DNA from: Planctomycetota bacterium | Lineage (GTDB): Bacteria > Planctomycetota > B15-G4 > JADJEK01 | Length of the DNA: 58,196 nt | Direction: 5' to 3' | NCBI GenBank assembly: GCA_016213895.1 | Contig: JACQZJ010000063.1 | Span: forward strand, 1 to 58,196 | Part shown: positions 33,500-55,130 of the stretch, one piece after another | Position numbering within the stretch: position 1 is the stretch's first letter | Layout: each line of letters starts with the position of its first letter | The notes under the pieces: generated by a model | The model's input: the letters and a program-made list of their open reading frames with translations, nothing else | Told to the model about the DNA's origin: nothing | Database searches by the model: none | Translations under genes and position numbers: made by a program

Positions 33500-34306
33500 C
33501 TAACCGGACCGCGGCGCGCGCAGGCGGTCCAGGCGCAGCCGGTGGCGCGCATCCGTGAGGCGCAGCACGCCGCCCAGGACGGCGGCGAGCGCGCCGAGCG
33601 TGGTGCCGCCGGCGATGAGGAACATGATCAGCATCTGGTAGCGCACGGCCTGCGCGGGATCGGCGCCAGCCAGGATCTGACCGGTCATCATCCCGGGCAG
33701 CGAAACCAGGCCGGTGGCGGCCATGGCGTTGATGATCGGCATGAGGGCGCTCAAGAGAGCCGCGCGCGCCACCGGCCGCGTCGCCTGCCAGCGCGTCGCG
33801 CCGAGAGCGATTTGCGCCTCGACCGCCGTGCGCCGCGTGTGCAGGCCGCTGCTCAGCGCGTGCAGTCCGAGGCTGACTCCGGTCATGGTGTTGCCGAGGA
33901 TCATGCCGAGCAGCGGCAGCGCGTAGCGCGGGTCGTACCAGGGATCGGGCCGCACCTGGGTGGAGAGGGCGAAGACCGTGACCAGCACGGCCGCGAGCAG
34001 CATGGACGACGTGCCCAGGCCGTAGGCCCAGACGCCCTTCAGGCGCCTCTCCTGGCGCGCCATGACCTCGCGGCCGGCGAACAGGACCATGGCCAGTGCA
34101 GCAACGCCGGTCCAAAGGGGCGAAACCGCGGCAAACAGCGCCTTCAGCACGGCCCCGACCAGCAGGAGCTGGACCACCATGCGCGCCGTGGCGAGGAGCA
34201 TGCGCCGCTCGAGCCCGAGGGCGAAGGCGAGCGACAGGGCCGCGTTCACCAGCACCAGGAGCGCGGCGAGCGACAGGTCGGCGATGTCGAGCTGGACGGC
34301 GTTCAC
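33500..34306 (-). CDS. fetB: FetB-type ABC transporter permease
   Basis: This 268-residue UPF0014/FetB protein has about seven membrane helices. It contains the family signature around '[15 protein letters not shown]' and '[19 protein letters not shown]', '[20 protein letters not shown]' and '[16 protein letters not shown]'. In E. coli, FetAB is reported to export iron and protect from oxidative stress. Its GTG start overlaps the stop of the ATPase gene (GTGA), so the two are translated together. Confidence 0.88.
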
Positions 34307-34902
34307 GCGCCCTGCTCCGTCACGCGGCCGCCCTCGACCCAGAGGCGCCGCCGCGCCAGCCGCCGCGCCTGGGCCTCGTCGTGCGTGACCCAGAGCGCAG
34401 AGGCCCCGGCCGCGAGCCGCTCGCGCACCAGATCCTCGGCCGCCAGGCGGGCCGCGTCATCCAGGCCGGAGGTCGGCTCGTCCAGGAGCAGCACGCGCGG
34501 ACCGCGCAGCAGGGCGCGCGCCAGGGCGAGGCGCTGGCGCTCGCCGGTGGAAAGGCGCGGCACTTCCCAGCCGAGCGCGCCGGCCGGCAAGAGGAGCCTC
34601 TCGAGAAGAGGCGCCGCGCCGCCGCCCTGCCCGCCGAAGTGGTCGCTGACCCGGTCCGTCCACCAGCCCGATTCGGCCGGCACGTAGCACACCCTGCGGC
34701 GCCACTCCGGCCCGGAAAACGTGCCGCGCTCCACGCCGTCGAGGCTCACCCGTCCCGCGCTCGGATCGAGGTCGGCAAGCGCCCGCAGGAGCAGCGTCTT
34801 CCCCGCGCCCGAAGGTCCGGCCACGACCACGCACTCGCCGGCCAGCAGCTCGAAGGAGGTCTGCTCCAGGCCAGGGCGCGTCAGCTCACGCACCGAGAAC
34901 AT
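34303..34902 (-). CDS. fetA: FetA-type ABC transporter ATP-binding protein
   Basis: This 199-residue ATPase has Walker A 'GPSGAGKT', the signature '[15 protein letters not shown]', Walker B '[13 protein letters not shown]' and the switch His in '[12 protein letters not shown]'. A short single-domain ATPase coupled to FetB is typical for the system. ATG 34902 is chosen because homology starts there, though no good Shine-Dalgarno is seen. It is transcribed away from the lipid cluster; 115 bases separate the two divergent starts. Confidence 0.85.
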
Positions 34903-35017
34903 GTCGCCATCATGAACGCCACGGCTCGCGGCGAGAAGAGCAGCGCGGCGCGATCCGCGAGAAAGCCGGGCGCGAGGCTGGAGGCTCGGCGCGGAAGTGG
35001 GCAGACTGGAAGCCCGC

Positions 35018-36139
35018 ATGTCCGAGCACGGAGACGCGAGCGGCGAGCAGGCCCGCGGCGGAAAGCTGCCGCTCCGCGGCATCGCCGTCGCGCTGCTCGT
35101 GCTCCTGGCGCTCCTCGCGCTCGACCGCTGGCGCGCCTCCAGCGGGCGCCTCCTTGACGAGGAGGACGTCATCCGCGCCGCGCGGCCGCTCATGGGGACG
35201 ATCTTCTCGGTCGAGGTCTTTCCCGGCGGCCGGGAGCGCGCCGAGGCGCAGCGCGCCGCGTTCGCGGCCCTCGACCTGGCGGAGCGCCTGGAGGAGCGCA
35301 TCAGCGAGTGGATCGAAGGGAGCGAGACCTCGGCCCTCAACCGCGCCGCGGGAGGGGCGCCGCTCGCTTTGAGCGCGGAGCTGCTCGAACTGATCACCGC
35401 TTCCCTCGACTGGGCGCGGCGCACGAACGGAGCGTTCGACGTCACCGGCGGCCCGCTCTACGAGCTGTGGGAAAGGGCGCGCGAAGACGGGCGCGTGCCG
35501 GGCGCGGACGAGGTGCGCGCGCTGCTCGACCTCACCGGCTTCTCCAAGGTCCGCGTCGCGGGCAACAGCGTGCGCCTGGAGCGGCCGGGCATGAAGCTCG
35601 GCTTCGGCGCGATCGGCAAGGGATTCGCCGCGGATCGCATGGCGGCATTCCTGCGCTCCGCCGGCTGGCGCGACTTCATCGTCGACGCCGGCGGCAACCT
35701 GGTGCTCTCCGGCGCGCGCGGCGCGCGGCCCTGGAACATCGCCGTGCGCCATCCGCGCCAGGACGGGCCCTTCGCCACGTGCCGCGCCACGGACTGCGCC
35801 GTTGCGACCTCGGGCGACTACGAGCGCTTCTTCGAGGTGGACGGCGTGCGTTACAGCCACGTCATCGATCCGCGCACCGGCTGGCCGGTGCGGGGGCTCT
35901 CCGGCGTGACGGTGTTCGCGAGCAGCGGGACCGACGCCGACGCGCTCTCGACCGCGCTCTTCGTCATGGGCATGGACCAGGGCCTGGCCTTCGCCGAGTC
36001 CCAGGAGGGCGTCGAGGCCCTGTTCATCGGCGACGACGGCGCGGCGCGCCTCACTTCCGGCCTAAGGCTCGAGGACGGCGGCATCCTGCTGCTCTCCCCT
36101 CTGCGCGCGGCGCCGCCCGAGGCCGGCCGGCCGAGATGA
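35018..36139 (+). CDS. apbE: FAD:protein FMN transferase (ApbE-like)
   Basis: This 373-residue protein has an N-terminal membrane helix ('[17 protein letters not shown]'), then the ApbE fold: '[16 protein letters not shown]', '[17 protein letters not shown]', '[15 protein letters not shown]', '[14 protein letters not shown]', '[13 protein letters not shown]', '[13 protein letters not shown]' and '[16 protein letters not shown]'. ApbE attaches FMN to Thr/Ser of target proteins outside the membrane, with Mg2+. It opens the lipid-type operon; its stop overlaps the first KS gene (ATGA). I saw no clear flavinylation motif in the neighbours, so the target may lie elsewhere. ATG 35018 is preferred to GTG 34997. 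Confidence 0.87.
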
Positions 36140-37287
36140 CCGGCAAAGCGCGAGCCGTCATCCTGGCCGACGCCGCGGCAATGACCGCGCTCGGCGCCTC
36201 GTTGGACGAGACCTGGGAAGGACTGCTCGCCGGCCGCTCCGCCGTTTCTTCGGTCACGCGCTTCTCGACCGAGCACGTGGCGCACCACGTTGCGGCGTGC
36301 ATCGCCGATCTCGACGGGCTGCGCCGAGCGGGAGAGAACCGCACCCTGGCCCTGGCGCGCGCCGCCGCCTTGCAGCTCCGCGCGCTTCCCGCCGGCACCT
36401 TCCTCATCTGGACCGGCCTGAAGGGGAACGCCGAGCCGCTCGACGAAGCGCAGGGCGGCGCGGCGCAAGCGCTCGCGGAACCGTGGCGCGCGCGCCACTA
36501 CCGCGAGCGCCTCGCGGCCGCGCTCGGGCTCGACCCGGAGAACGGCATGGAGGTGAGCGCGGCCTGCGCCTCCTCCACCGTCGGCCTCGCGCTCGGCGCG
36601 GGCATGATCAGGAGCGGCGAGCGCGACAGCGTGCTCGTCTGCGCCGCGGACATCGTGAGCCGCTTCGCCTTCCTCGGCTTCTCCGCGCTGCAGGCGCTCA
36701 GCTCGAGCGCCTGCCGCCCCTTCGACGTGGCGCGTGACGGGCTCTGCCTCGGGGACGGCGCCGCGGCCGTGCTGCTCGCGAGCGAGGAGACGGCGAAGAG
36801 GCACGGTCTCGAGCGCGACATCCGCCTCGCGGGCTTCGGCGTGGCGAACGACGCCACGCACATCACCGGGCCGGCGGCCGACGGCCGCGGCCTGGCGCGC
36901 GCCATGCGCGCGGCGCTCCTGCGCGCTGGCGTCCTGCCCGACGTGGTCGAGGCGTTCTGCGCCCACGGCACGGGCACGCCCTACAACGATTCCATGGAGT
37001 TGTCGGCGCTCGAGGACGTCTTCGGCGCGCGGCGCTTCCCGGTCTTCTCGATCAAGGGAGCGCTCGGCCACGCGCTCGGCGCCACGGGCGCGCTCGAGGC
37101 CGCGCTCTCGGCATGGGCGCTGCGCCGCGGCCTGGCGCCGCCCACCGCGGGCTTGCTGACTCCGGAGACGCGCGCCGCCGGCCGCGCGGCCGCGGCGCCG
37201 CAGCGCTTCGCCGGCCGGAACCTCCTCACGGTCAACTCGGGCTTCGGCGGCGTGAACGCCGCGCTCCTCCTGGAGAGGTGCGCATGA
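36136..37287 (+). CDS. Beta-ketoacyl synthase (first KS of the cluster)
   Basis: This 383-residue FabF/type II KS-like protein has the catalytic Cys144 in 'VSAACASSTVGLAL', His277 in 'CAHGTGTPYND', Lys307 and His312 in 'KGALGHALGATGALEA', and the Gly-rich end 'VNSGFGGVNAALLL'. It would extend an acyl chain on ACP by decarboxylative condensation. ATGA overlaps occur at both ends, with apbE before and the CLF-like gene after, so it should be made in step with its probable partner. The N-terminus is somewhat shortened against FabF (about 410 residues). Confidence 0.83.
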   Translation: MTGKARAVILADAAAMTALGASLDETWEGLLAGRSAVSSVTRFSTEHVAHHVAACIADLDGLRRAGENRTLALARAAALQLRALPAGTFLIWTGLKGNAEPLDEAQGGAAQALAEPWRARHYRERLAAALGLDPENGMEVSAACASSTVGLALGAGMIRSGERDSVLVCAADIVSRFAFLGFSALQALSSSACRPFDVARDGLCLGDGAAAVLLASEETAKRHGLERDIRLAGFGVANDATHITGPAADGRGLARAMRAALLRAGVLPDVVEAFCAHGTGTPYNDSMELSALEDVFGARRFPVFSIKGALGHALGATGALEAALSAWALRRGLAPPTAGLLTPETRAAGRAAAAPQRFAGRNLLTVNSGFGGVNAALLLERCA

Positions 37288-37979
37288 GCGGCGGCGCGGT
37301 GGTGAGCGGCGGCGGCTTCGTCACGGCCGGCGGCCACGGCCGGCTGGGCGAGGGCAGGCCGCTCCTCTTCCCGCCCGGGGCGCCGCTCCTGCCGCGGAAG
37401 GGCGAGATCTTCGCGGTGCCGCCGGCTCGCTACGGCCGCTTCGACGACTACACCAGGCTCGGCTGCGCGGCCGTCGCGCTCGCGCTCAGGGACGCCGGGC
37501 TCGAAGGAGGGGCCGCGGCGATGAACGCCGGCGTCGTGTGCGCCAGCGGCCGGGAGTGCCTCGCCACCGACCTTGCCTTCCAGGCGAGCACGCTCGCGGA
37601 GGACGGCCGGCTCGCCAGCCCCAACCTCTTCACCTACACGCTGCCGACCATCGTGCTCGGCGAGTGCGCGGTCGCTTTCGGCCTCACCGGCCCCACTTTC
37701 TGCACGGGCGAGGACGGCCGCATGGGAATGACCGCCCTGCTCGCCGCCCTGCGCCTGCTGGAAGGGGGCGAGGCCGGCGCCATGCTCGCCGGCTGGATCG
37801 AGAGCGTCCCGGCCGCGGGCGCGGACTCGCCGCTCGGGGCGCTGTTCGTGGTGGTCGAGCCCGCCCCGCGGCCAGGCGCGCGCGTCTTCTGGAAGCTGCG
37901 GCGCCAGGGAGACGCGGTGCTGCTCGAGAACGGCGCGCGGCTCCGCTCCCTTCCCCGGCTTTTCGCCGCGCGCGAGTAG
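37284..37979 (+). CDS. KS-like chain-length-factor candidate (first CLF)
   Basis: This 231-residue thiolase-fold protein matches the short 'beta-ketoacyl synthase, N-terminal' type (Ketoacyl-synt_2) used as chain-length factor in aryl-polyene clusters. Visible parts are 'DYTRLGCAAVALALRDAG', 'LASPNLFTYTLPTIVLGE', 'FGLTGPTFCTGEDGR' and 'GGEAGAMLAGWIES'. The normal TACxSS nucleophile box is altered, and no C-terminal His half exists, so it is unlikely to condense on its own. It should pair with the upstream KS, whose stop it overlaps (ATGA). The role is inferred from family and position. Confidence 0.65.
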   Translation: MSGGAVVSGGGFVTAGGHGRLGEGRPLLFPPGAPLLPRKGEIFAVPPARYGRFDDYTRLGCAAVALALRDAGLEGGAAAMNAGVVCASGRECLATDLAFQASTLAEDGRLASPNLFTYTLPTIVLGECAVAFGLTGPTFCTGEDGRMGMTALLAALRLLEGGEAGAMLAGWIESVPAAGADSPLGALFVVVEPAPRPGARVFWKLRRQGDAVLLENGARLRSLPRLFAARE

Positions 37980-37990
37980 GATCAGCCGGC

Positions 37991-39208
37991 ATGAAGTGGA
38001 AGCTGGTCTATCCGAAGTGGCGGAAGCTCGAGCGCCAGACCGAGTTCCACCTGCCGCCGCACGGCCCCGTGGTCATGGCCGCGGAGGTCCCGGAGGAGGT
38101 CGAGCTGGAGTTCGTGGACGACAACGTCTCCGCGCTCGACCTGGACGACTCTCCCGATCTCGTGGCGCTCTCGGTCATGCTCACGGCGCAGTTGCCTCGC
38201 GCCTTCGAAATCGCGGGCGCCTACCGCGCGCGCGGCGTGCCCGTGCTCGCGGGCGGAATCGCCACGATGCTGCACGAGGGCGAGGTGGCCCGCCACGCCG
38301 ACAGCGTCTTCCTCGGCGAGGTGGAGGGCGGGCGCTTGCAGGCGGTCCTGGCCGACCTGCGCCGCGGCAGCCTGCGGCCGGTCTACGACTTCATGCACGA
38401 CCCGCCCCCCATCGAGCTGGTCGGCACGGCGCGCCGCGGCATCCTCGACCGCGCGCGCTACGTGTACCGCGGCGTGCGCATGCTCGACCTGGTCCACGCC
38501 TCGCGCGGCTGCCGCTTCAACTGCTTCCCGTGCTGCTCCGCGTTCCTCGGCGGCAAGACCATCCGGCCGCGCCCCATCGACAAGGTGGTCGCGGAGGTCG
38601 AATCGATCGAGAACGGGCGCCTCTTCCTGGTGGACAACTCGCTGGCGCAGGACGCGCGCTGGGAGGAAGAGCTCTTCCGCGCGCTCGTTCCGCTGAAGAA
38701 GAGCTGGGTCAGCCATCCCATCGAGGAGGACGACCGCCTTCTCGACCTCGCCCGCCAGGCGGGCTGCTGGTACGTCTACCAGGCGATCTTCGACACCTCG
38801 GACGTCATCCGCGAGCGCGTGCGCCGCTACAAGAAGCACGGCATCGCCGTCGAGGGCACGGTCATCCTCGGCACGGACGAGCACGATCGGGACGCCATCC
38901 GCCGGCTGGTCGACTTCCTGCTGGAGATCGACCTCGACCTCGCCGAGTTCACCATCATGACGCCCTACGCGCACAGCCCGCTGCGCGAACGCCTCGAGCA
39001 GGAAGGGCGCATCCTCACGCGCGACCCGGCCGAGTACACCTGCGACCGTGTCACGTTCCGGCCGCGGCGCATGAGCCCGGCCGAGCTGCAGGAGATGTAC
39101 CACTACGCGTGGGACACGTTCTACGCCGAGAAGCCTCAGGAGCTGAGGATGGCCGACCTGTTCCTGAAGGTGATGCAGCAGGAGAGCGCGGGCGGAGAGC
39201 GCGGCTAG
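37991..39208 (+). CDS. B12-binding-type radical SAM protein (first)
   Basis: This 405-residue protein has an N-terminal Rossmann-like B12-type domain (about 1-140: 'EEVELEFVDDNVSALDLDD', 'GIATMLHEGEVARHADSVFLG'). It lacks the DxHxxG cobalamin signature, as is common for the base-off type. The radical SAM TIM barrel has Cys174, Cys178 and Cys181 in 'RGCRFNCFPCCSAF' for the 4Fe-4S cluster, and a C-terminal elongator-like part ('EFTIMTPYAHSPLRERLEQE'). Such enzymes do radical C-methylation, ring formation or similar steps. It resembles the B12/radical SAM group reported in ladderane lipid gene regions (recall). ATG 37991. Confidence 0.77.
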   Translation: MKWKLVYPKWRKLERQTEFHLPPHGPVVMAAEVPEEVELEFVDDNVSALDLDDSPDLVALSVMLTAQLPRAFEIAGAYRARGVPVLAGGIATMLHEGEVARHADSVFLGEVEGGRLQAVLADLRRGSLRPVYDFMHDPPPIELVGTARRGILDRARYVYRGVRMLDLVHASRGCRFNCFPCCSAFLGGKTIRPRPIDKVVAEVESIENGRLFLVDNSLAQDARWEEELFRALVPLKKSWVSHPIEEDDRLLDLARQAGCWYVYQAIFDTSDVIRERVRRYKKHGIAVEGTVILGTDEHDRDAIRRLVDFLLEIDLDLAEFTIMTPYAHSPLRERLEQEGRILTRDPAEYTCDRVTFRPRRMSPAELQEMYHYAWDTFYAEKPQELRMADLFLKVMQQESAGGERG

Positions 39209-39212
39209 CGAC

Positions 39213-40565
39213 ATGGCCAAGATCCTCCTCGTGGTCGCCAACGCCACGCGCGCGCCCTACCCGGTCTTCCCGCTTGGCCCGTCGCTGGTGGCGGCCGCGG
39301 CGCGCGCGCGCGGGCACGAGGTCCTCCTCTGGGACTTCCTCTTCGAGGCGCGGCGCGGCGGAGCGCTCGCCGCCGCCGTGGCCGCGCACGCGCCCGACGT
39401 GATCGGCGTCTCGCTCCGGAACATCGACAACGTCGACTCGATCGATCTCGAGTCGTACACCGCCTGGCAGCGCGCGCTCGTCCAGGAGGCGCGCGGCCTG
39501 AGCGCCGCTCCCATCGTGCTGGGCGGCGCCGGCTTCTCCCTCATGCCCGAGCGCCTGCTCGACGAGATGCAGGCCGATTACGGCGTGGCCGGCGAGGGGG
39601 AAGAGGCCTTCTGCAACCTGGTGGCGCGCCTGGAGCGGGGCGAGCGGCCCGCCGAACGCGTCGTCCTGCCGCCTTCTCCCCTGCCCCCCGAGCGCATCGG
39701 CGGCGCGCCGCCCGACCCGGATCTCGCGCGCTTCTACTTGGGCGAGGGCGGCATGCTCAACCTGCAGGCGAAGCGCGGCTGCCCCTACCGCTGCGCCTAC
39801 TGCACCTACCCCCTGCTCGAGGGACGGAGCTGCCGCAGCCGCGCGGCGCAGGACGTGGTCGACGAGATGGAGATGCTGCGCGACCGCTGCGCGGCCGACT
39901 ACCTGGCCTTCACCGACTCGACCTTCAACGACGCAGAGGGCTCCTACCTGGAGATCGCCGAGGAGCTTGTGCGCCGCGACCTGCACCTGTCCTGGATGGC
40001 CTTCTTCCGCCCGGACCGCTTCCGCCCGGAAGACGTGCGGCTCTTGCAGCGCGCCGGCCTGCGCAGCGTGGAGTGGGGCACGGACGCCGCGAGCGACGCC
40101 ACGCTTCAAGGCCTGAACAAGGGCTTCTCCTGGGAGGCGGTGGAGGAGAGCAGCCGCCTCTTCGCCGCGGCCGGGATCAGCGGCGCGCACTTCATCATCT
40201 TCGGCGGGCCCGGCGAGACGCCGGACACGGTACGCCAGGGCCTGGAGAACGTCGCGCGCCTCGCGGGCGCGGTCGTCTTCGCCTTTCGCGGGATCCGCGT
40301 GCTGCCCGGCACCGCCATGCAGCGTCTGGCCGTGGAACAGGGCCTGATGCGCGCCGACCAGGACATGCTGCCGCCCGTCTTCTACCACTCGCCCGAGGTG
40401 GACGGAGAGTTCCTGCACGCGGCGCTCGCCGGGTCGTTCCAGGGGCGGCCCGATCGCGTCTATCCGCCCGGCAGCGCCAGCGTCATGGCGCGCGCCTTCC
40501 ACCGCCTCGGCTACCGCGGGCCGCTCTGGGACCTCTTGCTGCGCAACGCGAGGTCGGGCCGATGA
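39213..40565 (+). CDS. B12-binding radical SAM protein (second, ladderane-type)
   Basis: This 450-residue protein has the B12-type N-terminus: 'MAKILLVVANATRAPYPVFPLGP', the surface loop 'GVSLRNIDNVDSI', and 'VLGGAGFSLMPERLLDEM' with 'YGVAGEGEEAF'. A radical SAM barrel has Cys190, Cys194 and Cys197 in 'RGCPYRCAYCTYP', and later 'FGGPGETPDTVRQGLENV'. The phrase 'SLRNIDN' and the layout recall the lipid-biosynthesis B12/radical SAM family seen in anammox ladderane regions (memory, unverified). It starts four bases after the first radical SAM gene and its stop overlaps the next gene (ATGA). Substrate probably ACP-bound acyl chain, by inference. Confidence 0.78.
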   Translation: MAKILLVVANATRAPYPVFPLGPSLVAAAARARGHEVLLWDFLFEARRGGALAAAVAAHAPDVIGVSLRNIDNVDSIDLESYTAWQRALVQEARGLSAAPIVLGGAGFSLMPERLLDEMQADYGVAGEGEEAFCNLVARLERGERPAERVVLPPSPLPPERIGGAPPDPDLARFYLGEGGMLNLQAKRGCPYRCAYCTYPLLEGRSCRSRAAQDVVDEMEMLRDRCAADYLAFTDSTFNDAEGSYLEIAEELVRRDLHLSWMAFFRPDRFRPEDVRLLQRAGLRSVEWGTDAASDATLQGLNKGFSWEAVEESSRLFAAAGISGAHFIIFGGPGETPDTVRQGLENVARLAGAVVFAFRGIRVLPGTAMQRLAVEQGLMRADQDMLPPVFYHSPEVDGEFLHAALAGSFQGRPDRVYPPGSASVMARAFHRLGYRGPLWDLLLRNARSGR

Positions 40566-42670
40566 TGGACCAGGCCTCGCCGGCGGCGCAGGAACCGGCG
40601 GCCGTGCGCGCGGCGCTCGTCCTCGTCGCGCGCGGCGCGGGCCGGGAGGCGCAGGCCAGGGAGCTGCGCGCGGCGCTCGGTCTCCCGCTCGTGCCTCTCG
40701 CACTTGGAGAAGGCGCAGGCAAGGACGAACTGCTGGCGGCCGCCGCGCGCTGGGCGCTGGAACGGGGCTTCACCCACATCATCGCGCTCGACGGCGACGG
40801 GCGCCAGGCGGCCGCCGAGGCCCAGGCTTTCCTCGCCGCGCTCGCGAGAAGTCCCTGCTCGATCGTCGTGGGCCGGCCGGCGCCTGGCACCAGGACGACG
40901 CGGAGCTTCAGCGCCCGCCTCGAGCGCCTGCTCCTGCGCGTGGCCTGCGGCGCGGACCTCGTCGCCGCCTGCTGCACGTCTTGCGCCTTCCCGGCCGCCG
41001 CGCTCGCACGCGTGCGCTGCTCGAGCGGTGCGCGCGAGCGCGACGTCGAGTTCGTGGTGCGCTCGCTGTGGGCCGGCCTGGAGCTCGCCACGGTCGAGGT
41101 CTCGGAGGCGCCGCGCGCCGCGCCCGCGCCGCGCTTCCTGGACCGCGCGCGCACCCTTCTCACCTGGCTCTGGCTCGCCGCGCGCAACATCAACCCGTGG
41201 CCGCACCGGCGGCGGTTCTATCCCGACCCGCACGCCGTGGCCTTCTCCTGGCGGCGGCCGCTCCGCTACTGGAAGTACCTGCACCACAACGTGGTCTACA
41301 GGAAGCTCGAGGCCGGAGAGGAGAAGCTCTCGCTGCGCCATCCGTTCCGCTCGCTGAGAATCCTGCACCTGGAGAGCACCTCTCCCCGCGAGATCAGCCT
41401 GGCGTGCATGCTCGGCATCTTCCTCGGCGCGCTCCCGCTCATCGCCCTGCACACCGTGGCGATCGTGTTCTACGCCACGCGCTTCCGCTTGAACCGCGCC
41501 ATCGCCTTCTACGCCAGCAACCTGTGCGCGCCCTGGGTGCCGCCCTTCGTGCCGGCGCTCGACATCGAGGCGGGCCACTTCCTGCTGCATGGCCGCTTCA
41601 TCACCGCGGCCGATCTCGGCACGCGCGAGGCGCTCTTCCAGACGCTCTGCGCCGAGGCGCACCTGCGCCTCTTCGAGTACCTGCTCGGCTCGCTGCTGGT
41701 CGGGCCCGCGTTCGCGCTCCTGGTCGGCGCGCTCGTCTACGCGCTGGCCGCGCGCCGCGCGGCGCGGCGCGCGGCGCCGGACTACGGCGGCCGCTCCGGC
41801 CACGCCATCTTCCACTTCCTCATCCGCCGCTGCGGCGTGACGCCGGCCTACGTCCTGCTCGCCCTGCTCGTGCCCTACTACGTGCTGCTCAGGCCGAGCG
41901 CGCGGCGCGCGGCAGCCCACTACCTGAAGCGCCGCTTCCCCGGCCGCGGGGCCTGCTGGCGCCTGGCCGCGACCATGCGCCACTTCCACTGCTTCGGCCG
42001 CGTGCTCATCGACCAGACCGCGCTCGGCATCCTCGGCGCCGAGAGCGCGCGCATCGACTTCCCGCAGCGTAGCAGGCTCAGGAGGATCGCTGGGAGGAAG
42101 CGCGGCCTCGTTCTCCTCACCAGCCACTTCGGCGGCTGGCAGGCGGCAATGGCCGCAATCGGCGACCTCGGCCGCCCCGTGCACTTCCAGCTGCGGCGCG
42201 AGGCGCGCACCGCGGGCCGGCAGCTCTTCGACCTGTGGGAGAAGCGCGCCAGCCTGCGCATGGTCTCGCCGGACGGCTTCCTCGGCGGGATGATCGAGCT
42301 GACCAGCGCGCTCCAGGGCGGCGGCTGCGCGGCCGTCATGGGAGACCGCGCCTTTGGCGCGCGCACCGCGCGCGCGGAGTTCCTGGGCGCGCCCGCGTCC
42401 TTCCCCGTAGCGCCCTATCGCCTGGCGTTGGCGACCGGCTCGGACCTGGTCGTGCTGCTCGCCGCGCGCACCGGCAGGCTGTCGTTCCGCCTGCGCTTCG
42501 TGCGCATCGCCAGCGGCCGGCCGCGCGCGGGCCAGGCGCACCCCGCGCGCGCCGCCCTGCTGCTCGGCCGCTACGTGCGCTGCCTGGAGCGCGGCCTGCG
42601 GGATTCGCCCTTCATGTGGTTCAATTTCTTTGACTTCTGGAACGGTGCCCAACACACTCGAAAATCCTGA
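40562..42670 (+). CDS. Glycosyltransferase-DUF2062-acyltransferase fusion
   Basis: This 702-residue three-part protein starts with a GT2-like domain (about 15-205) with 'THIIALDGDGRQ', the DxD-like site. A DUF2062 region with membrane helices follows (about 245-400: 'SPREISLACMLGIFLGALPL' ... 'NRAIAFYASNLCAPW'). Last is an LpxL/HtrB-like acyltransferase (about 415-700) with 'LLTSHFGGWQ' and 'AVMGDRAFGARTARAEFLG'. In LpxL the motif is H-x4-E/D; here it is His522 with Gln527. Relatives occur in aryl-polyene clusters. It should build and acylate the lipid head at the inner membrane. It starts inside the previous stop (ATGA). Confidence 0.75.
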   Translation: MMDQASPAAQEPAAVRAALVLVARGAGREAQARELRAALGLPLVPLALGEGAGKDELLAAAARWALERGFTHIIALDGDGRQAAAEAQAFLAALARSPCSIVVGRPAPGTRTTRSFSARLERLLLRVACGADLVAACCTSCAFPAAALARVRCSSGARERDVEFVVRSLWAGLELATVEVSEAPRAAPAPRFLDRARTLLTWLWLAARNINPWPHRRRFYPDPHAVAFSWRRPLRYWKYLHHNVVYRKLEAGEEKLSLRHPFRSLRILHLESTSPREISLACMLGIFLGALPLIALHTVAIVFYATRFRLNRAIAFYASNLCAPWVPPFVPALDIEAGHFLLHGRFITAADLGTREALFQTLCAEAHLRLFEYLLGSLLVGPAFALLVGALVYALAARRAARRAAPDYGGRSGHAIFHFLIRRCGVTPAYVLLALLVPYYVLLRPSARRAAAHYLKRRFPGRGACWRLAATMRHFHCFGRVLIDQTALGILGAESARIDFPQRSRLRRIAGRKRGLVLLTSHFGGWQAAMAAIGDLGRPVHFQLRREARTAGRQLFDLWEKRASLRMVSPDGFLGGMIELTSALQGGGCAAVMGDRAFGARTARAEFLGAPASFPVAPYRLALATGSDLVVLLAARTGRLSFRLRFVRIASGRPRAGQAHPARAALLLGRYVRCLERGLRDSPFMWFNFFDFWNGAQHTRKS

Positions 42671-42740: not shown

Positions 42741-42998
42741 GTGTCCCTGGAAGACGAACTGAAGAGCATGATCGTGCGCGAGCTGAAGATCGAGGACGTC
42801 GATCCAGCGAGCATCGCGGACGAGGAACCGCTCTTCGGCGACGGCCTGGGACTCGACTCCCTGGACGCGGTCGAGCTCGTCGTCCTGCTGCAGAAGCACT
42901 ATCAGGTGGAAGTCAAGGACATGGACCAGGGACGCACGGTGCTCGCGTCGATCCGCGCGCTCGCCGACTTCGTGCGCTCCGAACGACCGGGGAGGTGA
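42741..42998 (+). CDS. Acyl carrier protein
   Basis: This 85-residue ACP has the phosphopantetheine attachment Ser40 in 'GLGLDSLDAVELVVLL'. It carries the growing chain for the two KS-CLF pairs. The frame opens at 42630, but GTG 42741, after 'AGAGG', starts where ACP helix 1 starts. It follows the fusion protein by 70 bases, the widest gap in the operon. Only one ACP is present. Confidence 0.9.
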   Translation: MSLEDELKSMIVRELKIEDVDPASIADEEPLFGDGLGLDSLDAVELVVLLQKHYQVEVKDMDQGRTVLASIRALADFVRSERPGR

Positions 42999-43000
42999 CG

Positions 43001-44224
43001 GTGGCGGAGATCGTCGCCACCGGTCTCGGCTGCATCTCTGCCGCCGGAGGGAGCGTGGATGCCGCAACGGCGGCGATGCTCGCCGGCGAGCGCGCGCCGC
43101 GGCCGCCGCTCCGCTTCGCGCTCGACCTGGGCCGCGATTTGCCGGTGTTCGAGATCGACTCCGACCTGGCCGCGGCGACGGCCGCGCGCATGCAGAGCGC
43201 CGGAGTCGCGTGCGTGGCTCCGCCGTCCGATTGGTTCCGCACCTCGCGCCTGGCGGCGCTCGCCGCGTGCGAGGCGATCGAACAGGCCGGGCTCGACGCC
43301 GGCGCGCTGCGCGGCGCGCGCGCCGGCGTCGCGGTCGGCACCACGGTCGGGTGCACCCTCAACGATGAGGCCTTCTACCGCGCCTGGCGCCAGGGCAGCC
43401 GGCCCGAGCCCGGTCCCGCTCTGCGCCGCCTCGCCAACAACCCCGCCCTGCACCTCGCTGACCTGCTCGGCCTCGACGGGCCCGCGGCCACGATCGCCAA
43501 CGCCTGCTCCTCGGGCGCGGACGCGATCGGCTTAGGGATGGCCTGGCTCGAGTCCGGGCGCTGCGACGTCGTGCTCGCCGGCGGCAGCGACGAGCTGTCG
43601 CGCCTCACCTGCCTCGGCTTCGCCTCGCTCATGATCGCCTCGGAGCGGCCGTGCCGGCCGTTCGACCTGAAGCGCGACGGCCTCAACCTGGGAGAGGGCG
43701 CGGGCATGATCGTGCTCGAGACGCGCGCCGCCCTCGAGCGGCGCAGGGGGCCGCGCCCGCTGGCGCGCCTCCTCGGCTTCGGCACGGCCGCGGACGCGCA
43801 CCACGCGACCGCGCCCCACCCTGAGGGTCGCGGGCTGGCGCGCGCCATCCAGAAGGCCCTCGCCCAGGCCGGTTGCGCGGCCGCGCGCATCGGCTTCGTC
43901 AACGCGCACGGTACGTCCACCCGCGACAACGACCGCGTGGAGGGCAGGGTCATGAAGGACGTCCTGGCCGCGGGCACGCCGGTGGTCTCGACCAAGGCGT
44001 ACACCGGCCATACGCTCGGCGCGGCCGGCGCCATCGAGGCGGTCTTCACCATCCGCGCGCTCCAGGACGGCCGCCTGCCCGCGACCGCCGGCTTCGCGAC
44101 GCCCGACCCGGAGTGCGCCATCGTCCCGACCACGCGCGCGCTGGAGGTCGAGGCCGAGGTCGCGCTGTCCAACTCGCTCGCCTTCGGCGGCAACAACTCG
44201 GTCCTGCTCTTCGGGAGGGCGTGA
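43001..44224 (+). CDS. Beta-ketoacyl synthase (second KS)
   Basis: This 407-residue FabF-like enzyme has Cys169 in 'IANACSSGADAIGLG', His303 in 'NAHGTSTRDND', Lys332 and His337 in 'KAYTGHTLGAAGAIEA', and a proper end 'LSNSLAFGGNNSVLLFG'. The full catalytic set suggests an active condensing enzyme. GTG 43001 is chosen because GGAGG lies five bases before; GTG 42995 would bury this Shine-Dalgarno. It follows ACP almost directly and is followed by its likely CLF partner after three bases. Confidence 0.87.
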   Translation: MAEIVATGLGCISAAGGSVDAATAAMLAGERAPRPPLRFALDLGRDLPVFEIDSDLAAATAARMQSAGVACVAPPSDWFRTSRLAALAACEAIEQAGLDAGALRGARAGVAVGTTVGCTLNDEAFYRAWRQGSRPEPGPALRRLANNPALHLADLLGLDGPAATIANACSSGADAIGLGMAWLESGRCDVVLAGGSDELSRLTCLGFASLMIASERPCRPFDLKRDGLNLGEGAGMIVLETRAALERRRGPRPLARLLGFGTAADAHHATAPHPEGRGLARAIQKALAQAGCAAARIGFVNAHGTSTRDNDRVEGRVMKDVLAAGTPVVSTKAYTGHTLGAAGAIEAVFTIRALQDGRLPATAGFATPDPECAIVPTTRALEVEAEVALSNSLAFGGNNSVLLFGRA

Positions 44225-44227
44225 GGG

Positions 44228-45199
44228 ATGGCGCTCGCCGTGCTCGGCGTGGGAGCGGTCTCGGCCCTGGGGCAAGGAGCGGGCACCCTTGAGGACGGGC
44301 TGGCCGGACGGCGCCTGCCAGCCGCCGAGCACGAGACCATCGCCACTGTCTCGGGCGAGGCGACGCTCGCGGTCTTTCGCGCACGAAGCGACGGGCTCGA
44401 GCGCTACGTCCAGGCGCGCGCCCTGCGGCGCCTCGACCGCCTCTCGCGCATGGCCCTCCTCGCCTCGCACCTCGCGCTCGAGGACGCGGGCGTTCACATC
44501 GCGGACCGCTCCCGGCTCGGCCTCGCCTTCGGCTCGGCCTTCGGACCGCAGTCCGCGTCCGACGCGTTCAACGACAGCCTGATCGAGGGCGGCGACCGCT
44601 GCGCCTCCCCCACCGCGTTCGCGGGCTCGGTGCACAACGCCCTGGGCTCGCAGGCATCCATCGCGCTCGGCATCGAGGGTCCTTGCCAGACCGTCACCGC
44701 CCTCGGCCAGACCCTGGGAGGCGTCCTCGCCTGGGCCGAGGCGTGGCTCGCGCGCGGCGAGGTGGACTACGTGCTGGCCGGCGCCGGCGAGGAGGTCACG
44801 CCCTTCGCCGCGTTCTGCGCCGCGTCCGCCGGCGGCCGCGCCGTGCTGAGCGAGGGCTTCACCGCCTTCCTGCTCGGCGCGGGCGCGCAAGCGCAGCGCC
44901 GCGCCCGCGTCGAAAGGACCCTGTCGGGACACCTCACGGCGCACGACGCGCGCCGCCTCGACTTCCTCCCCGACCTCGAGACGCTCATCCTTTCGCACGA
45001 TGGCGGCCTGGGCGCGGAGGCCGCGGCGCGCCTTGCGCGCTCCCCAGTCCCCGCGTGCACGCCGCTCCCGGATTGCCTGCCGCCTTGCGCGGGCTTCGAC
45101 CTGGCCCTGGCCGCGCTCTGGTCTCGAGCAGCCGGCCAGACCGCCTGCCTCTCGTTCGATCGCGCGGCCCGCTACACTCTCGTGGTGCTGGCGCGATGA
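44228..45199 (+). CDS. Chain-length-factor-like KS without catalytic Cys (second CLF)
   Basis: This 323-residue KS-fold protein keeps 'CASPTAFAGSVHNALGSQAS', the pattern of aryl-polyene CLFs. The catalytic box reads 'GPCQTVTALGQTLGG', with no Cys in the TACSS position. The His motifs are absent as well. CLFs form heterodimers with KS and set the chain length. It is adjacent to the second KS, and its stop overlaps the next ATG (ATGA). Confidence 0.72.
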   Translation: MALAVLGVGAVSALGQGAGTLEDGLAGRRLPAAEHETIATVSGEATLAVFRARSDGLERYVQARALRRLDRLSRMALLASHLALEDAGVHIADRSRLGLAFGSAFGPQSASDAFNDSLIEGGDRCASPTAFAGSVHNALGSQASIALGIEGPCQTVTALGQTLGGVLAWAEAWLARGEVDYVLAGAGEEVTPFAAFCAASAGGRAVLSEGFTAFLLGAGAQAQRRARVERTLSGHLTAHDARRLDFLPDLETLILSHDGGLGAEAAARLARSPVPACTPLPDCLPPCAGFDLALAALWSRAAGQTACLSFDRAARYTLVVLAR

Positions 45200-45966
45200 A
45201 GACCAAGCCGACGCGAATCCGCCCTGCGCGACCGCCCGCCCCTGCCCGGACGGGCGCCTTTTCGTGCGCCCTTTTCGGCCTGCTCCTCCTCTTCCCCGGC
45301 CCGCCGCGCGCGGCCCAGCAGGAGGAAGAGAAGCCAGCGCCCGCGCCGCCCCTCTGGAGCCCGCTCACTCCCGAGGAAGAGGACGCTTTCCTGAAGAAGA
45401 TGGCCGAGACCCTGCGCGAGATGCAGACGCTGCGCGCGGAGTTCGTCCAGGAGCGGCACATCGCCTTGTTCCTCGCGCCGCTCGAGGCCAAGGGCGTGTG
45501 CTGCTTCGCCAAGCCGGCCTCACTGCGCTGGGAATTGACCGAGCCCTACGTCTCCATCCTGATCTTGAAGGAGGGCAAGGTCGCGAAGTTCGACCTGGTC
45601 GAGGGCAAGCTGCGCCGCATGAGCCTCGGCGCCGAGGACCTGCTGCGCGAGGTTCTCGGGCAGATCGTCGAGTGGATCAAGGGCGACTTCTCGCGCGCGC
45701 GCGAGCTGTACGACCTCGAGTTCCAGAAGGGAGAGGGCTTCCGCGTCGTCATGCAGCCGCGCTCCGCGGAGCTGAAGAAGGCGATCACCGCGGTCGAGCT
45801 GACCATCGACGCCGCCACCTGTCGCGCCACCAAGGTGGTGGTGCGCGAGCCGGGCGAGGACTTCCTCGAGATCCGCTTCTCCAAGGACGAGGTCAACGTC
45901 CGCCTCGACGAGAAGCTCTTCGACCTGGAGGAGCCCGGGGCGGCGACTCCCCCCGCGAACGGATGA
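45196..45966 (+). CDS. LolA-like outer-membrane lipid/lipoprotein carrier
   Basis: This 256-residue exported protein has a signal segment ('SCALFGLLLLFPGPPRAA') and the LolA fold: 'MQTLRAEFVQERHIALF', 'KGVCCFAKPASLRWELTEP', 'DAATCRATKVVVREPGED' and 'RFSKDEVNVRLDEKLF'. LolA proteins shuttle hydrophobic cargo through the periplasm. In aryl-polyene clusters a LolA paralogue is thought to help move the lipid pigment. Its ATG overlaps the upstream CLF stop. Confidence 0.78.
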   Translation: MKTKPTRIRPARPPAPARTGAFSCALFGLLLLFPGPPRAAQQEEEKPAPAPPLWSPLTPEEEDAFLKKMAETLREMQTLRAEFVQERHIALFLAPLEAKGVCCFAKPASLRWELTEPYVSILILKEGKVAKFDLVEGKLRRMSLGAEDLLREVLGQIVEWIKGDFSRARELYDLEFQKGEGFRVVMQPRSAELKKAITAVELTIDAATCRATKVVVREPGEDFLEIRFSKDEVNVRLDEKLFDLEEPGAATPPANG

Positions 45967-46670
45967 GCAGCGGGCGCACGCTCCTGGCGATCCTGCTCGC
46001 GGCCGCGCTCGCCGCGTGCCGCGGCGTGCCCTACGCGCCGGCGGCGGCCGCGGGCGAGGACGACCTGCCGCTCCGCGCCGCGCTGACCGGCGCGCTCGAG
46101 TCCGGCCTGCCCGCGTCCTTCCGCATGGCGCACCGCGTGGTGATCGTCGCCGGGGAGCGGCAGTTCGACTGCCTGGGCGTGCTCGTGATGCGCCGCGGCG
46201 CGGCGCTGCGCGCGCTCGCCGTGGGCGAGATGGGCGGGCGGCTCTTCGACTTCCTGGCGCGCGGCGCGGAGCAGCGCGTCCTCTTGCGGCCAGAGGGCAT
46301 GCCCGAGGAGCCGCTCTGCGAGGGCGTCCTCGCCGATCTGCTGCACCTCTTCGACCCGCGCGCTGGCCCGCGCGCGCGCGCGGCGCGCGCCGCGAACGGC
46401 CGCCTCGCGCTCCTCGTCGAGGAGGGCGAGAGCACGCGCGAGTACCTCTTCGATGCGGCGGGAGAGACGCTCGTTTCCTCCCTCGAGGCGCGGGACGGGG
46501 AAGTGGTGCGCCGCGCCTCCTACTCGGCCCACCGCCTCTTCCCGGGCGCGGGGCGGTCGCTGCCGGCGCGGATCGTGCTCGAGAACCTGCGCTTCAGCTA
46601 CCGCCTGGAGATCGACCTGCTCGAGTTCAGCGCCGACTCCGACCCGGACGCGGCGTTCGCGGTGCCGTGA
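45963..46670 (+). CDS. DUF3261-like outer-membrane lipoprotein
   Basis: This 235-residue lipoprotein (lipobox 'ALAAC') has a LolB-like beta fold: 'FRMAHRVVIVAGERQFDCLG', 'LRALAVGEMGGRLFDFLA', 'EYLFDAAGETLVSSLEA' and 'PARIVLENLRFSYRLEIDLLEF'. DUF3261 proteins occur beside LolA and an MMPL exporter in aryl-polyene clusters and may receive the cargo at the outer membrane. It overlaps the LolA stop (ATGA), and its stop shares one base with the exporter start. Confidence 0.75.
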   Translation: MSSGRTLLAILLAAALAACRGVPYAPAAAAGEDDLPLRAALTGALESGLPASFRMAHRVVIVAGERQFDCLGVLVMRRGAALRALAVGEMGGRLFDFLARGAEQRVLLRPEGMPEEPLCEGVLADLLHLFDPRAGPRARAARAANGRLALLVEEGESTREYLFDAAGETLVSSLEARDGEVVRRASYSAHRLFPGAGRSLPARIVLENLRFSYRLEIDLLEFSADSDPDAAFAVP

Positions 46671-49138
46671 TGGAGCGGTTCCTCGCCGCGCTGCGCGCGC
46701 GCCGGGGGCTGGTGCTGGCGCTCACGGCGCTCCTCACCGCCCTGCTGCTCCTTTCGGCGAGCGGGCTCTCCTTGCGCGAGGACGTGCTCGAGCTGCTCCC
46801 TGACCGCGACCCGGTGGTGTGGAGCTACCGCAGGCTGCTGGAGGTCTTCCGGCCGGCGGAGTATGCCTACTTCGACGTCGGACCGCGGGAAGGGAGCGCG
46901 GCGGCCGGCGAGGAGGAGCTGCTCGCCGCGGCCGACGCGCTGGCCGCCGGGCTCGAGCAGGCGCGCGGCGCGGCCGCGCCGCTCTTCGACCGGGTGATCT
47001 ACCGCCGCGATCCAGCGGATCTCCTCTCCGCGGTCGAGTTCCTCGGCGAGCACCGCGCCTCCCTGTTCAGCGCGGCGGACGCGGCGCGTTTCGCGGAGAG
47101 AGTCCAGCCCGAGGCGATCAGCGACGCCCTCGCGGCCTGGAAGAAGCTCCTCACCCTGTCGCCGGCGCCCCTGCTCGCGCCGGCCCTGGCGCGCGATCCC
47201 CTCGGCTTCGATCAGGCGCTCCTCGAGCGCCTCCAATCCCTCGAGCCCGCGGCCGGCGCCCTCACGCTGCACCGCGGCCGCCTGTTCAGCGCCGACCTCA
47301 GGCACGTGCTGGTGATCGCCCGGCCCGCGACGCGCTCGACCGACGGCCAAAGCGCCCGGGAGCTGGTCGACCTGGTCCTGGAGCTGCTGCCGCGCGCGCA
47401 AGCGCAAGGAGAGGGCGTCGCCATCGCCTGGCTCTCCGGGCACCGCTTCAGCCTGGAAAACGCCGAGCGCATCAAGGGCGATCTGGCGCGCGTGGTGACC
47501 CTGTCGCTCATCGGCATCGTCCTTCTGGCGCTGCTGGCGTTCCGGCGTTTCTTCTTCGTGGTGCTGGCGCTCCTCCCGGCCGCCTTCGGCGCGGCCTTCG
47601 CCGCCGGGATGATCCGCTGGCTCGCGCCCGGCGTGTCTGCCATCGCCATCGGCTGCGGCTCGATGCTCGTCGGCGTGAGCGTGGACTACGGCATCCACAT
47701 CCTCTTCCACGCGGACCACGCGTCCGCGGGCGAGAGGGTCGAGCCGCTGGTCCTACGCCTCTTCGCCCCGCTCTCGCTCAGCGCCGCGACCACGCTCGCC
47801 GCCTTCGCCGCGCTCTCTTTCTCGGTGATGCCCGGGTTCCGCCAGCTCGGCCTCTTCGCCGACCTCGGCATCCTCGGCGCCGCTGGCTTCGCCCTGCTCG
47901 TGCTGCCGCTCTTGATCTCGAACGCGCGCCCGGCGCGGCCGCCGCTTCTGGACGTGGCCGCCTTCTTCCCGCGCTGGTTCGCCTGGGCGCGCGCGCGCCG
48001 CGTCCTGGCCGCGGCGCTCCTCGCCCTCTTCACGCTCGGAGCGGCGCTCGGCCTGCCGCGCCTGGCCTTCGACGGCGACTACCGCCGGCTCAACGCCGCG
48101 TCGCCCGAGGCGCTCGCGGACTGGCAGAGGCTCGCCGCCACCTTCGGCGAGGCCATGGAAACCACCTCGGTGACGGTTGCGTCGCAGGACTCGGACGAGG
48201 CGCTGAGGCAGAACGAGGCGCTGTGCGCCGAGCTGGAGCGCCTCAAGGCCGAGGGCATGGTGAGCGACTTCCGCTCCCTCGCGCCGCTTCTGCCGAGCCG
48301 CGCCACGCAGGAGGAGAACCGCCGGCGCTGGCGGGAGTTCTTCAGCGAGGAGCGCAGGAACGCGCTCGCCGAGCGGCTGGCGGCCGCGGCGCAACAGCAC
48401 GGCATGCGGGAAGGGGCGTTTCTGCCGTTTCTCGCCTCTCTCGAGCGGGAGACCGCGCCGCTCACGCTCGAGGACTGGAACGTGGGCCTGCTCGGCGACC
48501 TCGGTGAGACCCACGTGGCGCGCGCGGACGGAGCTTCGTTCCTCCTCACCGGCCTGCGCCTGGCGCCGGGCGCGCGCTTCACGCAGGTGGTCGAGCGGCT
48601 CGAGCGCGCCGCGCCCGGCCTCCTCGCCGCGGACGGAAAGAGCTTCATGGAGCACCTCGTGGCGCTGATCCACGGCGAGATGGGCCGCGTCGGGGCGATC
48701 GGGCTCGCTCTCGTCGCCCTGCTCGTGCTCGGCGCGGTGCGGCGCCCGCTCTACGCCCTGGCCCTGCTTCTGCCGCCCGCTCTCGCCCTGCTCTGGTCAT
48801 TCGGCCTGATGGGCTGGCTCGGCCTGCGCCTCAACTTGATGAACTGCATCGTCTTCGTGTTCGTGGCCGGCCTCGCCGTGGACTACAGCGTCTTCCTGTT
48901 CGCGGCGTGGCGCTCCGCCCGGTCCGAGCGGGACGAGCATCTCTCGCGCTCCGGCGGGTCGGTCGCGCTTTCGGCGCTGACCACGCTCATCGCCGTGGGC
49001 TCGCTCGCGGCCGCGAGCCATCCAGCGCTGAAGAGCGTCGGCCAGACCGCCCTCTTCGGCATCGCCGGCGGCTGGCTCGCGGCCCTGCTCGCGGTCCCAC
49101 TCGCGCCGCGCGCCGGCGCCCGTCCCGAACGCGAGTGA
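46670..49138 (+). CDS. MMPL/RND-family lipid exporter
   Basis: This 822-residue inner-membrane protein has 11-12 membrane helices in two halves: 'RGLVLALTALLTALLLL', 'VVTLSLIGIVLLALLAF', 'IAIGCGSMLVGVSVDYGIHI', and later 'NLMNCIVFVFVAGLAVDYSVF'. The repeated Asp-Tyr signature in helix 4 ('VDYGIH', 'VDYSVF') is the proton-relay Asp of MMPL transporters. Large periplasmic loops lie after helix 1 and in the second half. It ends the operon and probably exports the finished lipid. A convergent lipoprotein gene ends nine bases downstream. Confidence 0.84.
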   Translation: MERFLAALRARRGLVLALTALLTALLLLSASGLSLREDVLELLPDRDPVVWSYRRLLEVFRPAEYAYFDVGPREGSAAAGEEELLAAADALAAGLEQARGAAAPLFDRVIYRRDPADLLSAVEFLGEHRASLFSAADAARFAERVQPEAISDALAAWKKLLTLSPAPLLAPALARDPLGFDQALLERLQSLEPAAGALTLHRGRLFSADLRHVLVIARPATRSTDGQSARELVDLVLELLPRAQAQGEGVAIAWLSGHRFSLENAERIKGDLARVVTLSLIGIVLLALLAFRRFFFVVLALLPAAFGAAFAAGMIRWLAPGVSAIAIGCGSMLVGVSVDYGIHILFHADHASAGERVEPLVLRLFAPLSLSAATTLAAFAALSFSVMPGFRQLGLFADLGILGAAGFALLVLPLLISNARPARPPLLDVAAFFPRWFAWARARRVLAAALLALFTLGAALGLPRLAFDGDYRRLNAASPEALADWQRLAATFGEAMETTSVTVASQDSDEALRQNEALCAELERLKAEGMVSDFRSLAPLLPSRATQEENRRRWREFFSEERRNALAERLAAAAQQHGMREGAFLPFLASLERETAPLTLEDWNVGLLGDLGETHVARADGASFLLTGLRLAPGARFTQVVERLERAAPGLLAADGKSFMEHLVALIHGEMGRVGAIGLALVALLVLGAVRRPLYALALLLPPALALLWSFGLMGWLGLRLNLMNCIVFVFVAGLAVDYSVFLFAAWRSARSERDEHLSRSGGSVALSALTTLIAVGSLAAASHPALKSVGQTALFGIAGGWLAALLAVPLAPRAGARPERE

Positions 49139-49750: not shown

Positions 49751-50050
49751 GGTCCTGCGCTCCCTCAAGAGGACGGACTCCTGCCGCGGTTTGGACGCTC
49801 CGGCGCTCGAGCCGGATGGCGGTGCGACCGCGGCTCAACCAGCGGGGATCCTCGCGAGACCGCTGCCGTCGCCGGCCGCGGCCCCGCCCCCGCCCGCACA
49901 TCCTGCCGAACACCGCGCGCGATTGCCACGGTCGAGGCGCGCCGCGCTGTACGCTCCCCGCCGCCCCCAGTAGGATGCTCGCCGGCGTCGCGGGAAGCGC
50001 CGTTGCCACCGCGACCGCCGCTCGAGTAACGACCGCGGCCAGCCAGAGCG

Positions 50051-54992: not shown

Positions 54993-55130
54993 CCTGCCCG
55001 GCGGAAGCGCCGCAGCGCAACCGTCTCGGCCCGGGGAATCGCGCGCGCGGCCGATCCGGCCGGCCGCCCTGCCGCGCGCTATACTCCGGCGTACGTTGCG
55101 CCGCCTTCCGGCCGGGAGCCAGAACACGCG

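Follow-up and report, generated by a model that had tools for sequence, protein, structure and literature searches.

A conserved pair of radical SAM genes within a ketosynthase and acyl carrier protein operon of a Planctomycetota bacterium

We analysed a stretch of 58,196 nucleotides from a Planctomycetota bacterium (assembly GCA_016213895.1, contig JACQZJ010000063.1; the whole stretch is called the window here), focusing on two adjoining genes for radical S-adenosylmethionine (SAM) enzymes, designated rSAM1 and rSAM2. The pair is real and conserved, its enzymes are uncharacterised, and the gene cluster around it is of a known kind. An earlier note on this DNA had described two different radical SAM genes placed back to back between condensing enzymes, and this layout is borne out: a gap of four bases separates the genes on the plus strand, with ketosynthase/chain-length-factor (KS/CLF) pairs on both sides. 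The motif positions that it had given are likewise correct, with CRFNCFPC at residues 174–181 of the rSAM1 product and CPYRCAYC at residues 190–197 of the rSAM2 product. The features of the pair are as follows.

37991..39208, plus strand: rSAM1, radical SAM protein of an unnamed family, its Rossmann domain of the B12 type (alignment, profiles and model)
38510..38533, plus strand: CxxxCxxC motif of rSAM1, residues 174–181, three cysteines invariant in 56 of 56 sequences
39213..40565, plus strand: rSAM2, member of TIGR04072 (rSAM_ladder_B12) with a TsrM-like predicted fold (profiles and model)
39417..39419, plus strand: codon for rSAM2 Arg69, aligned with TsrM Arg69, which lies under the cobalt; Arg in 58 of 58 sequences
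39780..39803, plus strand: CxxxCxxC motif of rSAM2, residues 190–197, present in 58 of 58 sequences

Families, predicted folds and key residues of the two enzymes

rSAM2 belongs to NCBIfam family TIGR04072, scoring 542.2 bits against a cut-off of 360 with residues 3–443 on positions 1–442 of the 443-position profile, and carries a B12-binding domain (PF02310, 66.8 bits) followed by a Radical_SAM domain (PF04055, 59.4 bits), both above cut-off. The models for TsrM and BzaD come next, far under their own cut-offs; the TsrM family of tryptophan 2-C-methyltransferases (TIGR04428) gives 147.6 bits against a cut-off of 500. TsrM, a cobalamin-dependent tryptophan C2-methyltransferase, is the nearest protein in both fold and profile. 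Among the structures listed, where the absence of a family does not exclude it, the rSAM2 model (mean pLDDT 91.9) matched TsrM (6wtf_A) with Z 37.1 and a root-mean-square deviation (rmsd) of 2.6 over 445 residues at 29% identity, followed by OxsB (Z 27.0) and AprD4 (Z about 27), and the profile comparison to TsrM gave E 1.8e-54.

Residue counts were made on an alignment of 58 rSAM2 sequences (A5), 8 of them from outside the set of named genomes; a further alignment (A7) held the window copy and 49 of 78 rSAM2 sequences. In TsrM, Arg69 closes off cobalamin from below (PMC13331322, PMC8992657); this Arg is retained in all 58, and the 20 sequences of neighbouring B12rSAM3 proteins have T, Y, V or a gap at its position. 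The unique iron is taken up in TsrM by Glu273 (PMC8992657), a residue that is never Glu in rSAM2; it is replaced by V (40), I (12), T (4) or L (2), suggesting that the cluster site is free. By alignment, rSAM2 therefore appears to resemble TsrM on the cobalt side while leaving the cluster site open, the two anammox-type sequences described below included. At the position of Tyr308, a residue with a role in TsrM, 43 of the 58 have Phe and 15 have Tyr, and the gene context differs from that of TsrM. Outside the genus, rSAM2 sequences are 38–56% identical to the window copy.

rSAM1 had no NCBIfam match near a cut-off, and its 55 aligned orthologues match the same general models only. The window copy scores 25.2 bits on the Pfam B12-binding profile (cut-off 32.1) and has no Pfam Radical_SAM match. 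When the window copy was aligned with 55 of 63 rSAM1 sequences (A6; 3 truncated and 5 further ones were left out), B12-binding (PF02310) was matched in 56 of 56 and Radical_SAM in 49 of 56 at E<=0.001, and an additional Cys follows the cysteine motif in 52 of 56; this conservation of domains and cysteines is far beyond chance. The aligned orthologues outside the genus are 57–74% identical to the window copy, and an identity of at least 57% across phyla hints at a strictly constrained substrate. At the position of TsrM Arg69, Met or Leu is found in 61 of 64 sequences, with gaps in 3.

The rSAM1 model (mean pLDDT 92.2) lies closest to AprD4, a radical SAM 1,2-diol dehydratase (PMC5461906), which it matches over almost its full length (6fd2_B, Z 32.1, rmsd 2.6, 373 residues aligned; profile E 4.2e-9), the next structure being MgmA with Z 26.6. 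It differs from AprD4 in sequence (21% identity), lacks a segment of ~14 residues after the GCWYVYQA strand that its paralogues possess, and misses the AprD4 family NF033070 (34.3 bits against a cut-off of 500). The earlier note had regarded both proteins as B12-type enzymes and proposed structure prediction as a check. Because AprD4, which is not counted as a cobalamin enzyme and is not known to need cobalamin, is the nearest fold to rSAM1, this description is well supported only for rSAM2, with its TsrM-like model and its B12-binding match above cut-off; the window copy of rSAM1 stays under that cut-off.

Occurrence of the pair and its relation to anammox loci

To survey related loci, named genomes were scanned with a five-row alignment (A3), yielding 497 confirmed relatives, of which 80 were kept, all near those five rows; anammox records are not among the 80. 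Co-occurrence counts refer to 78 of these loci, L145 and L163 having fallen outside the clustered rSAM2 family, and a direct search found both rSAM1 and rSAM2 in L145. rSAM2 relatives occur in Thermodesulfobacteriota, Omnitrophota, Nitrospirota, Lentisphaerota, Kiritimatiellota, Verrucomicrobiota, Elusimicrobiota, Acidobacteriota, Sumerlaeota and others. rSAM1 adjoins rSAM2 in 62 of the 78 loci (50 of the 59 in which the upstream sequence spans 2.5 kb or more), and the 63 pairs, window included, are all on one strand, 59 of them within 300 bases by the ends of their open reading frames (ORFs). Among the pair-bearing records, that of Pontiellaceae bacterium B12227 (L139) is the one not labelled as a metagenome-assembled genome. 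The commonest gene order is PCL, SPASM radical SAM, LolA, MMPL, DUF3261, dehydratase, thioesterase, KS, CLF1, rSAM1, rSAM2, glycosyltransferase, LpxL, acyl carrier protein (ACP), KS, CLF3. Among 31 loci with at least 9 kb on both flanks, KS was found in 30, LpxL in 29, rSAM1 in 27, MMPL in 26, dehydratase in 24, and thioesterase and LolA in 23 each. The pair is thus tied to KS/ACP operons of lipid type over many phyla, in support of the setting that the earlier note had described.

Over the 42 rows that the two alignments share, pairwise identities of rSAM1 and rSAM2 are correlated (r=0.87, a value reached by 0 of 2000 permutations), which is what joint inheritance would produce. Within the phylum, TIGR04072 matches above cut-off were found in 12 of 199 genomes, and rSAM1 matches above 300 bits in 3 of 199: the window's genome, its genus-mate G179 (contig DYIW01000027.1, 89% identity) and G033 (47%). 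The G033 relative (L071:10739-11917, plus strand) lies on a 14-kb contig on which no other operon family was detected. In the rSAM2 tree, a quick build with SH-aLRT support only, 25 open inner branches and one outgroup join flagged for long-branch risk, the window and G179 sequences grouped with one from Sumerlaeota and two others from metagenome-assembled genomes (5 rows, SH-aLRT 100), so transfer between phyla is likely.

A third B12-type radical SAM gene directly follows rSAM2 in 15 of the 78 loci, G179 included, where it lies between rSAM2 and the glycosyltransferase gene (L070:6274-7698, minus strand); the window's genome holds no orthologue of it, the best match there being 33% identical. 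ORF clustering of the loci, in which antisense ORF families were disregarded, also showed a family of ~440 amino acids (L096:16989-18335, plus strand, and relatives) beside a second ACP in 28 of 81 loci, without a Pfam or NCBIfam match.

Two further genomes, G088 and G168, each contain one region with LpxL, LolA, an rSAM1-like gene, KS/CLF pairs, PCL, SPASM radical SAM, rSAM2, ACP, MMPL and desaturase genes. A methyltransferase of G088 matches 8HD2 (E 1.2e-81), which is AmxMT1 of Brocadia fulgida (PMC9821293), and the two are therefore read as anammox genomes. Their rSAM2 homologues score 440 bits (G088) and 417.6 bits (G168), above the TIGR04072 cut-off, and gene order suggests that this homologue is kuste3342 and that the locus corresponds to kuste3352 to kuste3335, the ladderane-candidate locus of Kuenenia. 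The window operon shares with that locus the TIGR04072 enzyme and the neighbouring KS/CLF pairs, ACP, MMPL, LolA and LpxL. By contrast, the anammox-type rSAM2 is ~33% identical to that of the window and branches outside the 79-row clade holding it, and the anammox locus itself includes additional methyltransferases, a SPASM radical SAM and a desaturase.

No rSAM1 orthologue was found at the two loci inspected: the upstream B12-type radical SAM gene of G088 and G168 was rejected as one, being 29–31% identical and keeping the segment absent from rSAM1. The separate clade of the anammox rSAM2 also led us to reject the idea that the pair marks ladderane-producing organisms. The earlier note had mentioned related enzymes in ladderane regions and proposed a phylogeny against lipid-biosynthesis families. 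The relation is supported for rSAM2, a member of the family named after those regions, but the pair is not a ladderane signature, and the anammox-type rSAM2 forms a clade of its own. What ties the pair to ladderanes is family membership and not a product that has been demonstrated. 'Ladderane' clusters have already been published for Desulfobacterota, Omnitrophota, Verrucomicrobiota and others (PMC9902471).

The window operon and a second operon in the same genome

The pair lies in an operon on the plus strand, whose genes mostly overlap their neighbours by a few bases, in the order ApbE-KS1-CLF1-rSAM1-rSAM2-glycosyltransferase/DUF2062/LpxL-ACP-KS3-CLF3-LolA-DUF3261-MMPL. Its other genes are listed below.

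34997..36139, plus strand: ApbE (FAD:protein FMN transferase), PF02424 283.9 bits, overlapping the KS1 start by 4 bases
36136..37287, plus strand: KS1, ketosynthase with Cys/His/His (PF00109/PF02801)
37284..37979, plus strand: CLF1, short KS-like partner without the active-site Cys (PF00109, 35.6 bits)
40562..42670, plus strand: glycosyltransferase-like N-terminus, DUF2062 and LpxL-type acyltransferase, ApeJ-like (PF09835, PF03279)
42741..42998, plus strand: ACP, start codon uncertain (PF00550; NF006617 75.4 bits, cut-off 70)
42995..44224, plus strand: KS3, second ketosynthase with Cys/His/His (profiles and active-site alignment)
44228..45199, plus strand: CLF3, second KS-like partner, the window copy without the active-site Cys (PF00109/PF13723)
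45196..45966, plus strand: LolA-like carrier, ApeL-like (PF03548, 43.7 bits)
45963..46670, plus strand: DUF3261 lipoprotein, ApeN-like (PF11659, 25.2 bits, cut-off 22.3)
46670..49138, plus strand: MMPL/RND exporter, ApeM-like (PF03176, 47.9 bits; TIGR00921 118.6 bits, under cut-off)

Since KS1 and KS3 retain Cys/His/His and CLF1 and CLF3 lack the Cys, the operon encodes two KS/CLF-type pairs; across the CLF1 family, the active-site column is without Cys in 57 of 57 aligned members. We infer from its overlap with KS1 alone that ApbE belongs to the operon, and the GT2 domain of the 40562..42670 product could be named only via a relative (L127). A small lipoprotein-like frame (49148-49768, minus strand), without an NCBIfam match, faces the operon end, and frames that cluster with a similar protein occur in 17 of 81 loci, window included. 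Upstream, on the opposite strand, lies a FetB-like iron ABC permease (33500-34306, minus strand; 129.9 bits, cut-off 410). Elsewhere in the window, a frame of 612 amino acids (53952-55790, minus strand) matches RlmN over residues 334–607 (252.5 bits, cut-off 290) with ~330 additional N-terminal residues, and is adjoined by a MoaA/PqqE-like radical SAM protein of 368 amino acids (52753-53859, minus strand).

A second operon of the window's genome, on contig C112 at ~33594-38500, encodes a short-chain reductase, a 4HBT thioesterase, a FabA/ApeI-like dehydratase, a KS and a phytoene-desaturase-like flavoenzyme; G179 has the same gene set, plus a SPASM fragment, on contig C442. The two operons together resemble the aryl polyene (APE) clusters of E. 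coli, Xenorhabdus and Acinetobacter, compared through a published gene table (PMC8253772): the window operon matches APE genes C, E/F, J, L, M, N and O, with KS and CLF, ACP, an ApeJ-type glycosyltransferase/acyltransferase, LolA, DUF3261 and RND exporter all present, and the C112 operon matches K, P/I, Q and R. APE clusters make an ACP-bound polyene, for which attachment by ApeD/ApeJ and export by ApeL, M and N have been proposed (PMC8253772). The resemblance is incomplete: the dehydratase, ketoreductase, thioesterase and another KS are on a separate contig instead of within the same cluster, and the window operon has two KS/CLF pairs and two radical SAM enzymes. No ApeH-type AMP-binding ligase or aromatic-starter gene was found among the window operon proteins searched, the remaining genome not having been searched for the ligase.

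The condensing enzymes also recall cispentacin synthesis, in which a ring is closed by a KS with a short inactive partner, AmcF-AmcG (PMC10698177). AmcF is the best NCBIfam match of KS1 by E-value (220.6 bits), KS3 scores 219.1 bits, and CLF1 is likewise a shortened, inactive KS-like partner. Both ketosynthases, however, stay under the AmcF cut-off of 325, CLF3 scores 20 on AmcG (cut-off 80), and CLF1 has no AmcG match. By analogy, the cispentacin enzymes may serve as a precedent for ring formation by KS1/CLF1, even though KS1 is under the cut-off.

Possible roles of the pair

The pair very probably acts within a lipid or polyene pathway. We put forward, as a reading with an even chance of being right, that the product is an envelope-anchored polyene-type lipid. 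An acyl chain would be assembled on ACP by the two KS/CLF pairs, with reductase, dehydratase, thioesterase and phytoene-desaturase-like flavoenzyme supplied by the C112 operon. With cobalamin as the methyl donor, rSAM2 would methylate a carbon of the unsaturated or beta-keto chain carried by ACP, having Arg below the cobalt and an open cluster site at which SAM could be cleaved as well; this C-methylation is perhaps slightly favoured. On its AprD4-like scaffold, rSAM1 might subject that chain to a further radical reaction, perhaps a dehydration, an isomerisation (double-bond shift) or a ring closure, a tentative assignment. The glycosyltransferase/LpxL protein would then attach the chain to an envelope lipid, and the RND exporter, LolA and DUF3261 proteins would carry it to the outer membrane. 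The grades given to the pathway and to each enzyme are judgements.

Several observations weigh against this reading. The window operon lacks a ketoreductase and a dehydratase of its own, and the C112 operon is linked to it by co-location in other genomes, where dehydratase and thioesterase are often beside the pair but FabG and desaturase seldom (each in 5 of the 31 loci with full flanks); a single pathway served by both operons is accordingly an inference. As no aryl-starter gene was found in the operon, 'aryl' is not claimed for the product. Because Glu273, part of the unusual TsrM mechanism, is absent, that mechanism is not simply transferable to rSAM2, and the fold does not imply methylation, since the same scaffold holds the ring-contracting OxsB. 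The use of cobalamin by rSAM1, and hence its cofactor state, is only putative, and rSAM1 was not detected at 16 of the 78 rSAM2 loci, 9 of which have room for it.

Both enzymes could instead be cobalamin methylases, rSAM1 too binding cobalamin, that methylate the chain once or several times and so give it methyl branches. The B12-type Rossmann domain found in every rSAM1 sequence aligned, the third B12-type enzyme that follows rSAM2 at some loci, and the hydrophobic residue (Met or Leu) where the cobalt would face, a position at which TokK has Trp (PMC13331322), are compatible with this; the B12-binding score of the window copy and a fold nearer to AprD4 (Z 32.1) than to the cobalamin enzymes listed (Z at most 26.6) make it rather unlikely. 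That the enzymes tailor a starter unit or the glycolipid anchor, not the growing chain, is unlikely as well: PCL or AMP-ligase and SPASM radical SAM genes do occur in many loci, and a glycosyltransferase-like gene lies directly 3' of rSAM2, but the tightest linkage is to KS/CLF1 and the acyltransferase, and the operon proteins yielded no ligase.

Ladderane-type cyclisation, in which the pair and the desaturase-like flavoenzyme would fuse small rings from an ACP-bound polyene and give ladderane-like lipids outside anammox bacteria, is improbable. It draws on the membership of rSAM2 and both anammox-type homologues in TIGR04072, on the KS/CLF, PCL, SPASM, ACP, MMPL and phytoene-desaturase-like genes around the latter, and on the desaturase-like gene that the window's genome holds with KS, dehydratase, thioesterase and ketoreductase. 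Against it stand the missing rSAM1 orthologue and separate rSAM2 clade of the anammox-type loci, the report of Rattray et al. that Desulfotalea, which shows synteny of ladderane-candidate genes, made no ladderanes (PMC2649909), and the report that no novel fatty acids appeared when the Kuenenia genes were expressed in E. coli, though kuste3342 and kuste3343 proteins were undetected there (PMC4790861). Ladderane formation by the pair is therefore not supported. A housekeeping identity, as a tRNA methylthiotransferase or hopanoid-type enzyme near lipid genes by chance, is extremely improbable. The weak matches to HpnJ, BchE and MiaB/RimO models are all far below curated cut-offs, which rules out the tRNA- or hopanoid-modifying placement that the earlier note had named as contrary to its view, and linkage to KS/CLF genes over many phyla and the TIGR04072 membership of rSAM2 point elsewhere.

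A more speculative and quite unlikely reading is that rSAM1 founds a new radical SAM family and that many anaerobic phyla use it, together with rSAM2 and two KS/CLF pairs, as a machine that puts rings or branches into ACP-bound polyenes. The anammox ladderane locus would then be one divergent branch of a wider pathway family, and carbocyclic outer-membrane lipids would be the products of its other members.

In the open-access literature searched, the rSAM1 family, the fixed rSAM1–rSAM2 pair and the TsrM/AprD4 assignment were not found in print, and TIGR04072 or its family name was not found in any paper. Ladderane biosynthesis is unsolved, and most of the argument about it rests on anammox genomes beyond manipulation. 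With the pair and its operon, simpler gene sets of a related kind are available from other phyla, and because a few of these belong to cultured groups or lie close to them, what the TIGR04072 enzyme does is testable without anammox cells. Recurring as it does in many unrelated, mostly uncultured bacteria, the pair has a product and a chemistry worth testing.

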